From contig MEEW01000005.1 in the NCBI GenBank assembly GCA_001724985.1, positions 1 to 32,853 of the forward strand: a stretch of DNA of 32,853 nucleotides, written 5' to 3'. The notes under the pieces were generated by a model. It worked only from the letters and a program-made list of their open reading frames with translations, was not told the DNA's origin and searched no databases. How positions within the stretch are numbered: position 1 is the stretch's first letter; each line of letters starts with the position of its first letter. This document shows positions 11,652-18,131 of this stretch, one piece after another. The position numbers and the translations under genes were made by a program. The stretch is from Phenylobacterium sp. SCN 69-14. GTDB taxonomy: Bacteria > Pseudomonadota > Alphaproteobacteria > Caulobacterales > Caulobacteraceae.

Positions 11652-13247
<1,596 letters not shown>

Positions 13248-13658: not shown

Positions 13659-15251
13659 TTACGCGAACTGGTTCATCGTGTTGTGGACGCCGCCGGCCTT
13701 CAGGGCCGCTTCACCGGCGAAGTACTCCTTGTGATCGTCACCGATGTCGGAGCCCGACATGTTCTGGTGCTTCACGCAGGCGATGCCTTCGCGGATCTCC
13801 TTGCGCTGGACGCCGGCGACGTAGCCGAGCATGCCGGCCGCGCCGAAGTATTCCTTGGCCAGGTTGTCGGTCGACAGGGCCGCGGTGTGGTAGGTCGGCA
13901 GGGTGATCAGGTGGTGGAAGATGCCGGCCCGCTTGGCGCCGTCCGCCTGGAAGGTGCGGATCTTCTCGTCGGCTTCGGCGGCCAGTTCGGTGCCGTCGTA
14001 GTCGACGCTCATCAGCTTCTCGCGGTCGTAGGCCGAGACGTCCTTACCGGCCGCCTTGTAGGTGTCGTAGATCTGCTGGCGGAAGTTCAGCGTCCAGTTG
14101 AAGGACGGGCTGTTGTTGTAGACCAGCTTGGCGTTCGGGATGACTTCGCGGATGCGGTCCATCATCGAGGCGATCTGCTCGACGTGCGGCTTCTCGGTTT
14201 CGATCCACAGCAGGTCGGCGCCGTTCTGCAGCGAGGTGATCGAGTCGAGGACGCAGCGGTCGGCGCCGGTGCCTTCGCGGAACTGGAAGAGGTTCGACGG
14301 GAGGCGCTTGGGACGCAGCAGCTTGCCGTTGCGGGTGATGATGACGTCGCCGTTGCCGATCTGGCTGGCGTCGACTTCGTCGCAGTCGAGGAAGGCGTTG
14401 TACTGGTCGCCCAGGTCGCCCGGCTGGTGGCTGACGGCGATCTGCTTTGTCAGGCCGGCGCCGAGGCTGTCGGTGCGGGTGACGATGACGCCGTTGTCGA
14501 CGCCCAGCTCGAGGAAGGCGTAGCGGACCGCGCGGACCTTCTGCAGGAAGTCCTCGTGCGGGACGGTCACCTTGCCGTCCTGGTGGCCGCACTGCTTTTC
14601 GTCCGAGACCTGGTTCTCGATCTGCAGGGCGCAGGCGCCGGCCTCGATCATCTTCTTGGCCAGCAGGTAGGTCGCCTCGGCGTTGCCGAAGCCGGCGTCG
14701 ATGTCGGCGATGACCGGAACGACGTGGGTCTGGAAGTTGTCGATCTGGTCGATGATCGAGGCTTCCTTGGCCTTGTCGCCGGCCGCGCGGGCGGCGTCGA
14801 GGTCGCGGTAGAGGCCGCCCAGCTCACGGGCGTCGGCCTGGCGCAGGAATGTGTAGAGTTCTTCGATCAGGGCCGGGACCGAGGTCTTCTCGTGCATCGA
14901 CTGGTCCGGCAGCGGACCGAATTCCGAACGCAGCGCCGCGACCATCCAGCCCGACAGGTAGAGGTACTTGCGGTCGGTCGACTTGAAGTGCTTCTTGATC
15001 GAGATCATCTTCTGCTGGCCGATGAAGCCGTGCCAGCAGCCCAGCGACTGGGTGTACTTGCCGGCGTCCAGGTCGTAGGCCGCCATGTCCTTGCGCATGA
15101 TGTCGGCGGTGTACTTGGCGATCTCCAGGCCGGTCTTGAACCGGTTCTGCAGGCGCATGCGGGCGACGGACTCGGGATTGATGCCGTCCCAGGTGCCGTT
15201 CTTGCTTTTGATGAGCTGGCCCATCTCGATGATATGGTCTTGGTAAGACAT
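13659..15251 (-). CDS. aceA: Isocitrate lyase (long, about 530 aa form)
   Basis: MSYQDHIIEMGQLIKSKNGTWDGINPESVARMRLQNRFKTGLEIAKYTADI; DEKQCGHQDGKVTVPHEDF catalytic region; VYNNSPSFNWTLNF. Confidence 0.96.
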   Translation of the reverse strand: MSYQDHIIEMGQLIKSKNGTWDGINPESVARMRLQNRFKTGLEIAKYTADIMRKDMAAYDLDAGKYTQSLGCWHGFIGQQKMISIKKHFKSTDRKYLYLSGWMVAALRSEFGPLPDQSMHEKTSVPALIEELYTFLRQADARELGGLYRDLDAARAAGDKAKEASIIDQIDNFQTHVVPVIADIDAGFGNAEATYLLAKKMIEAGACALQIENQVSDEKQCGHQDGKVTVPHEDFLQKVRAVRYAFLELGVDNGVIVTRTDSLGAGLTKQIAVSHQPGDLGDQYNAFLDCDEVDASQIGNGDVIITRNGKLLRPKRLPSNLFQFREGTGADRCVLDSITSLQNGADLLWIETEKPHVEQIASMMDRIREVIPNAKLVYNNSPSFNWTLNFRQQIYDTYKAAGKDVSAYDREKLMSVDYDGTELAAEADEKIRTFQADGAKRAGIFHHLITLPTYHTAALSTDNLAKEYFGAAGMLGYVAGVQRKEIREGIACVKHQNMSGSDIGDDHKEYFAGEAALKAGGVHNTMNQFA

Positions 15252-15274
15252 CTCAACTCTTCCGTTGCCTTGGC

Positions 15275-15391
15275 CTGTGACAGCCGTTGCCGCCATCTAA
15301 TCCTTGTCCGGCTTGGGATGAAGGGTTAACCCGGTGCAACAAGGCTCAGTTGTCACAGCTCGACCTTGTAAATCTTGTAAATCTGTGACAG
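15275..15391. promoter_or_regulatory. Clustered operator-like motifs in the aceA / XRE-regulator divergent promoter
   Basis: CTGTGACAG at 15275-15283 and 15383-15391, CTGTGACAA (minus) at 15358-15350, tandem TTGTAAATC at 15366-15374 and 15375-15383. Confidence 0.55.
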
Positions 15392-15400
15392 TGAGACTCC

Positions 15401-16840
15401 ATGGCGGTCTCGACCACGGATCGGAAGCTCTTCCTCGGCGCGCGGCTGAAGCGGCTGCGGCGCGATCTCGGCCTCACCCAGACGCGGATGGCCGAGGACC
15501 TGGGCGTTTCGCCCAGCTATCTGAACCTGCTCGAACGCAACCAGCGGCCGGTGACGGCCCAGGTGCTGCTGCGGCTGGCCGAGGCCTACGACCTGGACCT
15601 CAAGACCCTGTCGACCGATCCGGAGGGCGGCGGGGCGACCGGCCTGGCCGAGGTGTTCTCCGACCAGATGTTCCGCGACCTCGGGGTGGCGCGCCACGAG
15701 ATCGCCGAGGTGGCCGAGAGCGCGCCCGGCGTCTCCGAGGCCATCGTGCGGCTCTACCGCGCCTATCTCGACCAGCGGGCCCTGACCGACCTGGGCGCCA
15801 TCGGGCGGCCGGAGGAGGGGGCGGCGGCCGGGTCGTCGGTGCTGCCGTCCGACTGGGTGCGCGACTTCATCCAGGCCCAGAAGAACTATTTCGCCGAGCT
15901 GGAGGAGGCGGCCGACAGCCTGGTGGCCGAGCTGGGCGTGGAGCCGCTGGACTTCGCCGTGGCCGCGCGCGAACGGCTGGCCAAGCGCCACGGCGTCACC
16001 GTGCGGATCGTGCCGCTGGAGGTGCTGCCGGAATCGGTGCGCCGCTACGACTATCACCGCAAGCGCCTCTTCCTCTCCGAGGTGCTGACCGCGGACGGCC
16101 GCTCGTTCGCGCTGGCCTATCAGTTGGCGATCCTGGAGAACGGGCCGCTGCTGGACACCCTGGTCGAGCGGGCCGGGCCGCCGGACCGGCCGACCCGCAG
16201 CCTGCTGAAGGTGTCGCTGATCAACTACCTGGCCGCCGCCATACTGATGCCCTACGGCGCCTTCCACGAGGCGGCCGAGCGCACGGCCTACGACATCGAG
16301 CTGGTGCGCTCGCGCTTCGGGGTGTCGTTCGAGCAGGCCTGCCACCGGCTGACCACGCTCTCGCGGCCCGGCGCGCGCGGGGTGCCGTTCTTCATGCTGC
16401 GGGTGGATTCGGCCGGCAACATCTCCAAGCGGTTCGCGGGCGCGACCTTCCCGTTCTCGCGCTTCGGAGGCACCTGCCCGCGCTGGAACATCCACACCAG
16501 CTTCCGCACGCCCGGCCGCATCGTCACCCAGATCGTCGAGACCCCGGACGGCCAGCGCTACTTCACCCTGTCGCGCACGGTGGCGCGGATCGCCACGCCC
16601 TATGCGGGGGACGATTCGGAGCTGGCCATCGGCATGGGCTGCGAGCTGAAGTTCGCCGAGCGGCTGGTCTATTCGCGCGGGATCGACCTGCGCGAGCCGG
16701 CGGTGACCGCCATCGGCCCGGCCTGCCGGATCTGCGAGCGCCCGGCCTGCACCCAGCGGGCGGCCGAGCCGATCAACCGCACCCTGACGGTCGACGACTT
16801 CACCAAGTCGATCTCGCCCTATCCCTTCGCGTCGGGCTGA
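15401..16840 (+). CDS. XRE-family regulator, short-chain fatty acyl-CoA regulator type (ScfR/RamB-like) with IrrE-like domain
   Basis: HTH (LGLTQTRMAEDLGVSPSYLNLLERNQRPVTAQVLLRLA), C-terminal CRICERPACTQRAAEPINR; divergent from aceA. Confidence 0.88.
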   Translation: MAVSTTDRKLFLGARLKRLRRDLGLTQTRMAEDLGVSPSYLNLLERNQRPVTAQVLLRLAEAYDLDLKTLSTDPEGGGATGLAEVFSDQMFRDLGVARHEIAEVAESAPGVSEAIVRLYRAYLDQRALTDLGAIGRPEEGAAAGSSVLPSDWVRDFIQAQKNYFAELEEAADSLVAELGVEPLDFAVAARERLAKRHGVTVRIVPLEVLPESVRRYDYHRKRLFLSEVLTADGRSFALAYQLAILENGPLLDTLVERAGPPDRPTRSLLKVSLINYLAAAILMPYGAFHEAAERTAYDIELVRSRFGVSFEQACHRLTTLSRPGARGVPFFMLRVDSAGNISKRFAGATFPFSRFGGTCPRWNIHTSFRTPGRIVTQIVETPDGQRYFTLSRTVARIATPYAGDDSELAIGMGCELKFAERLVYSRGIDLREPAVTAIGPACRICERPACTQRAAEPINRTLTVDDFTKSISPYPFASG

Positions 16841-16901
16841 CGCCTTGCGCCGCGCAGGGCTTGCGATAGACAGGGCGGCTGAAGGGGATGGCAGGGACGG
16901 C

Positions 16902-18131
16902 ATGGCTGAACGCAAGGGCGCGCGCGCGACCGACCGCTTCCGCAGGAAGCGCGAGGCGATCCTCGACGCCTCGATCGCCATCCTCAACCAGAAGGGCGTG
17001 AAGGGGCTGACCCTGGCCGACGCGGCCGCGGCGGTGGGCCTCTCGACGACCAGCGTCACCTATTATTTCAAGCGCAAGGACGACCTGGCCGCCGCCTGCA
17101 TGGCGCGCGGCGTCGCTTGGCTGCAGGAGGCGGCCGAGACCGCGGTGGCCGAGCCGGCCCCGCGCGAGCGGCTGCACAGGCTGCTGGAGCTCTATCTGGA
17201 GCGGGTGCGGCTGGCGGTGCTGGGGCAGGCCCCGCCGCTGCCGACCCTGGCCGACCTGCGCGCCTTGAACGAGCCGCGCCGGGGCGAGGTGTTCGAGGCC
17301 TATGTGAAGCTGTTCCGCAAGGTGCGGACCCTGTTCGACGGGCCCGACACCGCCTGGCTCAGCCGCGGCCGGCGCACGGCCCGGACCCACATGCTGCTGG
17401 AGCAGCTCTTCTGGTCGGCGGCCTGGCTGCCCAAGTACGACGTCGAGGACTATCCGCGCATCCGCGAGCGGATGTTCGACATCCTGGTCGGCGGCCTGGC
17501 GGTCGAGGGCGCGGTGTGGAGCCCGGCGGCCGCGCCGCTGGCCGAGCTCGCCGCCTGCGAGCCGCAGGAGATCAGCCGCGACACCTTCCTGCTGGCGGCC
17601 ACGCGGCTCATCAACAGCCGCGGCTATCGCGGAGCGTCGGTCGACAAGATCTCGGCGGCGCTCAACGTCACCAAGGGCTCGTTCTATCATCACATCGACG
17701 CCAAGGACGATCTGGTGGTCGCCTGCTTCGACCGCACCTTCGAGGTGATGCGCCGGGTGCAGCGGCTGGCCATGAGCTTGCCGGGCGACCAGTGGCTGCG
17801 GCTGTCCAGCGCCGCGGCGGCCCTGGCCGAGTACCAGCTTTCCGACTACGGACCGTTGCTGCGGGTCTCGGCGCTGTCGGCGCTTCCCGAGCCGATTCGC
17901 GGCGAGCAGGTCGCCCATTCGGACCGGGTGTCGGACCGCTTCGCCTCGATGATCTCCGACGGCGTCGCCGAGGGCTCGATCCGGCCGGTCGACCCGGCCA
18001 TCGCCGCCCAGATGCTGAACGCCACCCTGAACGCCGGGGCCGAGCTCGGCTTCTGGGTGCCGGGCATCACCCAGAAGGCCGCGCCCTCGGTCTTCGCCCG
18101 GCCGCTGCTGATGGGGATCTTCGTCCGGTAA
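16902..18131 (+). CDS. Tandem TetR/AcrR-family transcriptional regulator (two HTH domains)
   Basis: First HTH ILDASIAILNQKGVKGLTLADAAAAVGLSTTSVTYYFKRKDDL; second HTH FLLAATRLINSRGYRGASVDKISAALNVTKGSFYHHIDAKDDL. Confidence 0.9.
   Translation: MAERKGARATDRFRRKREAILDASIAILNQKGVKGLTLADAAAAVGLSTTSVTYYFKRKDDLAAACMARGVAWLQEAAETAVAEPAPRERLHRLLELYLERVRLAVLGQAPPLPTLADLRALNEPRRGEVFEAYVKLFRKVRTLFDGPDTAWLSRGRRTARTHMLLEQLFWSAAWLPKYDVEDYPRIRERMFDILVGGLAVEGAVWSPAAAPLAELAACEPQEISRDTFLLAATRLINSRGYRGASVDKISAALNVTKGSFYHHIDAKDDLVVACFDRTFEVMRRVQRLAMSLPGDQWLRLSSAAAALAEYQLSDYGPLLRVSALSALPEPIRGEQVAHSDRVSDRFASMISDGVAEGSIRPVDPAIAAQMLNATLNAGAELGFWVPGITQKAAPSVFARPLLMGIFVR

Follow-up and report, generated by a model that had tools for sequence, protein, structure and literature searches.

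A composite candidate operator of an ScfR/RamB-type regulator divergent to aceA in Phenylobacterium and related Caulobacteraceae

Introduction

RamB of Corynebacterium glutamicum binds sites of the TTTGCAAA type. CoA esters act as the switch of RamB and PrpR, both of which form tetramers, and the PrpR site spans 17 bp with two 8-mers. In Paracoccus denitrificans, the site of RamB (Pden_1365) in the ramB-ms intergenic region has been proven by BLI and reporter assays; two boxes upstream of the glyoxylate operon are both necessary in vivo, and RamB brings about activation on acetate and repression on succinate (PMC10370305). In Caulobacter, aceA and aceB are upregulated 70-90-fold in the stationary phase (PMC4551563), a rise which shows that strong control is present while not identifying the controlling factor.

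Here we analyzed the region between aceA and a divergent regulator gene in a window of 32,853 nucleotides (contig MEEW01000005.1) from Phenylobacterium sp. SCN 69-14. A preliminary description of this region had reported several short repeats and attributed them to two different factors.

Results

The regulator divergent to aceA belongs to the ScfR family

The names aceA and ScfR-type regulator given in the preliminary description were confirmed by profile searches (Table 1). The regulator combines an N-terminal HTH, an IrrE/M78-like domain and the PF09856 C-terminal domain by which ScfR membership is judged, with PF09856 at 220 bits and PF06114 and HTH_31/HTH_3 likewise exceeding their gathering scores, and it matches the MtPrpR structures at 3e-77. 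The ligands of a [4Fe-4S] cluster, C-X2-C-X4-C and a fourth Cys, are present in the window protein and in all its relatives (MtPrpR positions 363, 447, 450, and 455), and the equivalents of the CoA-contacting Arg159 and Arg348 are conserved. The ligand-tuning residue at the PrpR-155 position is Ser in the window regulator, whereas it is Phe in PrpR, His in MtRamB, and Val in the Paracoccus RamB orthologs.

Table 1. Coordinates of the features in and around the aceA-regulator intergenic region of the window.
Feature	Position	Strand	Remarks
aceB, malate synthase A, downstream of aceA	11652..13247	-	TIGR01344, 846 bits
aceA, isocitrate lyase (PRK06498 type), divergent to regulator	13659..15251	-	NF005074, 1067 bits
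-35 box of predicted regulator promoter (CTGTGACAG here, first palindrome of the preliminary description)	15275..15283	+	ortholog consensus CTTTGACAA
-10 box of predicted regulator promoter (ATCTAATCC here)	15295..15303	+	ortholog consensus CTCTAACGC
Flanking block AAAAGGC	15339..15345	+	kept with or without adjoining aceA; 5 bp outside operator
Composite ScfR/RamB-type putative operator	15350..15391	+	~40-bp element of invariant geometry in 35 Caulobacteraceae loci
Operator words	TTGTCACAG (15350), TTGTAAATC (15366), TTGTAAATC (15375), CTGTGACAG (15383)		TGT offsets 0/16/25/33
ScfR-family transcriptional regulator, 479 aa	15401..16840	+	HTH, IrrE/M78-like, ScfR C-terminal domain
Tandem double-TetR protein downstream of regulator, possible same operon	16845..18131	+	two TetR_N stretches; ORF counted from TTG, ATG at about 16902

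PrpR and RamB of Mycobacterium tuberculosis resemble this system in family, domain order, the CxxCxxxxC motif with a fourth Cys, direct repeats at 9-bp intervals, and a location beside icl1/prp genes (PMC6765138). They differ from it in their TTTGCAAA-type palindromic words, in having Phe or His instead of Ser, and in an identity of only ~40% or less; no TTTGCAAA-type site was found in 15252-15400. The link to RamB drawn in the preliminary description was right in kind, but the Corynebacterium protein it took as a model is more distant than Paracoccus RamB. While C. glutamicum RamB shares the ScfR family and the control of acetate/glyoxylate genes, the window regulator scores 425 bits against the NCBIfam equivalog for actinobacterial RamB (NF038139), below the cut-off of 700. 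In a quick tree it also falls outside the Paracoccus RamB clade (Paracoccus/Hyphomonadaceae, 100 SH-aLRT), forming a clade of its own with Sphingobium and Caulobacteraceae. We therefore call the regulator RamB-type, after its presumed function and its neighbourhood, and assign it to neither named RamB class.

The repeats form one element of invariant geometry

The palindrome CTGTGACAG occurs, as described before, in exact copies at 15275-15283 and 15383-15391, with a near-copy, TTGTCACAG, at 15350-15358 (CTGTGACAA on the minus strand); the 33-bp register between the last two and the 9 bp from the last site to the ATG at 15401 were likewise found to be correct. The tandem of two TTGTAAATC words is exact at 15366-15383, with 0 expected, but it overlaps the last palindrome at base 15383 instead of abutting it. 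Over the whole window, CTGTNACAG with at most one mismatch has 5 matches, an ordinary number compared with the 6.0 expected, whereas its clustering is unusual: three matches within 117 bp were seen in none of 300 Markov-simulated windows, and a Poisson estimate gives about 1.6e-6 per stretch.

Phylogenetic footprinting of orthologous intergenic regions, the check suggested earlier, found the motifs conserved, which supports a putative operator of the ScfR/RamB-like regulator beside aceA. All 17 same-genus orthologs align over 40 bp immediately 5' of the regulator without a gap or any variation in length, giving the footprint TGTCACAG-N4-AC-n-TTGTnA-N4-TGTAAA-N2-TGTGACAA. In 35 Caulobacteraceae loci, the element consists of four TTGTnA-type words, all in one orientation, with TGTGACAA as word 4 and TTGTnA-spacer (about 3-4 nt)-TGTAAA as words 2-3 conserved in the orthologues, and the information per column rises to 2 bits within the words, with the linkers close to background. 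A pattern of 20 fixed bases matched 30 loci without mismatch and 35 with up to four (named genomes included), among them the loci of Caulobacter (regulator protein identity 59-64%), which had been left out when the pattern was built. The pattern was present in 19 of 60 genus genomes, in a single copy in each and always before this regulator, and absent from the remaining genus genomes and from reversed controls. A relaxed pattern, comprising the outer and third words only, returned the same sole location per genome. The operator is single-target.

A block with the consensus AAAAGGC (ACAAGGC in the window) is conserved beside the operator at positions -12 to -6, with 1.0-1.8 bits per column. 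It may be part of an extended operator or a fifth contact, or else part of the aceA promoter.

The window displays two distinct word types, TGTnACA and TTGTAAA, from which two independent sites had been proposed, the TGTnACA palindromes serving one factor and the TTGTAAATC tandem another. However, the tandem belongs, together with the two proximal TGTnACA sites, to one invariant 40-bp element, whose words share an ungapped register in 35 loci and never occur apart. The word types also interchange in relatives, word 2 being TTGTCACAA in L051/L053, words 1-3 TTGTCA in L062/L067, and the third word TTGTAA in L096. Among the 30 named loci, both the exact tandem and an exact palindrome at the last site are confined to this window; one additional genome (G023/L003) also has the exact tandem. 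Moreover, the counterpart site of Paracoccus RamB, a single site, is made from the same mixture of words. Since the tandem repeat represents words 2-3 and the last palindrome word 4 of one site, a second factor is unnecessary, and we consider two independent sites improbable. A separate second-factor site was rejected, every word lying in one invariant register.

The element corresponds in position to the Paracoccus RamB site

The Paracoccus oligonucleotide that was tested can be aligned with the intergenic sequence beside the P. ferrooxidans ortholog (L149), where its last word touches the RamB ATG and its words lie, in the same reading direction, at -9, 0, 23, and 32, that is, as two 9-bp-spaced pairs. 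As in Paracoccus, an ScfR protein is divergent to the glyoxylate genes here, and the site has the same location and orientation, with TTGTCA/TGTAA words in one orientation, an outer register of 33 bp (32 bp in Paracoccus), and the regulator start codon beside the last word. The Paracoccus RamB tetramer has a [4Fe-4S] cluster and a CoA-ester pocket; for the window regulator, the Fe-S cysteines are known from the sequence. Unlike in Paracoccus, the words stand at 0/16/25/33, with an extra middle word and spacings off by 1-2 bp, the operon begins with aceA instead of aceB, and the regulator, which belongs to a separate clade, has Ser at the PrpR-155 position where Paracoccus RamB has Val. At ScfR loci further afield, three TTGTnA words spaced by 8-9 bp occupy the same place. 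As the 9-bp spacing recurs in Paracoccus, at distant ScfR loci and in PrpR, the tandem repeat singled out earlier reflects the ordinary word spacing of ScfR sites. On these comparisons, the operator and regulator of the window appear to be a variant of the switch already worked out in Paracoccus.

The upstream palindrome coincides with a predicted promoter of the regulator

Alignment of the ortholog regions, with small shifts allowed, revealed two further conserved boxes. The -35 region carries 10.8 bits (shuffle maximum 4.1) and lies 74-79 bp 5' of the operator in all orthologs, while the -10 region carries 8.9 bits (shuffle maximum 4.1) and lies 55-58 bp 5' of it. The distance between promoter and operator is constant (SD about 1 bp), and the intervening sequence is variable. 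The Caulobacter RpoD consensus is TTGaCgS / GCtANAWC (PMC8144410), and the pair CTTTGACAA...CTCTAACGC fits it, pointing to a predicted RpoD-type promoter oriented toward the regulator. A promoter within the operator, with TTGTCA and TGTAAA as -35 and -10, was discarded because the spacing is unsuitable.

The 15275 palindrome had been regarded as a further operator copy. At this position, the orthologues have CTTTGACAA or TGTGACAA, followed at a constant distance by CTCTAACGC; in view of this conserved -35/-10 pair, the CTGTGACAG of the window is best read as a -35 box that is palindromic by chance, and its role as an operator copy was rejected. If all three palindromes were nevertheless regulator sites, they would have to be looped over about 75-108 bp. 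Such looping would agree with the constant distance to the operator and with a minority of orthologs in which TGTGACAA in the -35 region resembles word 4. However, most orthologs have TTTGACAA or TTTTACAA there, with the -10 box at constant spacing, and the promoter accounts for the conservation, making looping very improbable.

The closeness of the last site to the regulator ATG had also suggested autorepression. Because the predicted transcription start lies near 15308, ~42 bp before the operator, simple repression by covering the promoter is not expected, and self-control of the regulator, if present, would act as a roadblock.

The element stays with the regulator gene

In all aceA-bearing loci measured, the distance from the operator to the regulator ATG is 9-11 bp, while that to aceA varies from 92 to 125 bp (SD 8 bp); no conserved -10/-35 was recognised for an aceA promoter on the minus strand. 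The operator is kept beside isocitrate lyases whose identity to that of the window is 80-90%, ~57% or ~28%, and also where none adjoins (L051-L055, L069, L076, and L090). It therefore belongs to the regulator, being kept whichever isocitrate lyase adjoins, or none, and control of aceA cannot be its sole role, since it persists without an adjoining aceA in several genomes.

At least three unrelated types of isocitrate lyase accompany this regulator-operator pair (L050-L114), as if swapped in place. In 19 loci, some with aceA and some without, the gene directly 3' of the ScfR regulator encodes a double-TetR protein of 409-428 aa.

These arrangements raise the question of whether the operator serves only the regulator and the double-TetR operon, with aceA controlled elsewhere and its adjacency merely historical. 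Retention of the operator in at least seven genomes without adjoining aceA would fit, as would the distances, fixed to the regulator promoter and ATG and not to aceA, and the double-TetR gene that remains downstream. Yet across alphaproteobacteria this type of regulator adjoins isocitrate lyase or aceB genes belonging to several unrelated types, and the counterpart Paracoccus site is necessary for expression of the glyoxylate operon (PMC10370305). We therefore regard a site without a role for aceA as unlikely, though less so than the two alternatives discussed above.

A paralogous regulator adjoins aceA in other Phenylobacterium genomes

In five genomes whose window-type regulator has no adjoining isocitrate lyase, aceA lies beside a paralogous ScfR protein, Y, with 43-44% identity to the window regulator. 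In these genomes (G004, G021, G022, G028, and G030; loci L002, L004-L006, and L008, and L127, L132, L136, L139, and L145), the window-type regulator stands apart from aceA and retains its own operator. Y is divergent to a 90% identical aceA, and its word geometry is alike (0/23/31); its operator differs in a conserved TGTCAAACTTTACAG-N6-TTGTAATGTTGTAAGG and an inverted middle word. No second regulator at Y-like identity was found in the source assembly, which is incomplete (2.69 Mb, 77% complete).

Phenylobacterium lacks the key enzyme of the ethylmalonyl-CoA pathway

None of 16 Phenylobacterium genomes contained a crotonyl-CoA carboxylase/reductase over the family cut-off, and thus no ethylmalonyl-CoA pathway, so that the glyoxylate cycle should be their only route of acetate assimilation. 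With this key enzyme missing, the Paracoccus signal, methylmalyl-CoA of the ethylmalonyl-CoA pathway, is unlikely here, and the window regulator probably responds to a different CoA signal.

Discussion

Our results suggest that 15350-15391 is in all likelihood a single composite operator of the adjacent ScfR/RamB-type regulator, which would control aceA-aceB as well as itself and be switched by an acyl-CoA. The regulator would be transcribed from the promoter made up of the -35 box at 15275 and the -10 box at 15295, and as a tetramer its four HTH domains could read the four TTGTnA words of the same orientation. From the operator, it would control the divergent glyoxylate genes aceA-aceB and may activate aceA. 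As the operator lies in the 5' leader of the regulator gene, right before the ATG, the bound protein may in addition limit its own transcription or translation by the roadblock considered above. A short-chain acyl-CoA in a [4Fe-4S]-dependent pocket would serve as the switch.

It is conceivable, though we put this forward tentatively, that the Caulobacteraceae rely on a distinct ScfR clade, which has a four-word operator of its own and responds to a CoA ester from outside the ethylmalonyl-CoA pathway. Regulator and operator might then form a unit that predates the isocitrate lyase and does not depend on it; the enzyme would have been swapped for unrelated types or lost repeatedly, while the operator remained fixed and some displaced regulators survived without aceA.

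The analysis corrects the two-factor idea for the aceA/regulator promoter region and provides a testable single-site candidate operator for the glyoxylate switch in a family that includes Caulobacter. Finally, a RamB-type switch appears to be present in a genus that lacks the source pathway of the Paracoccus signal, and its signal would accordingly have to be a different one.
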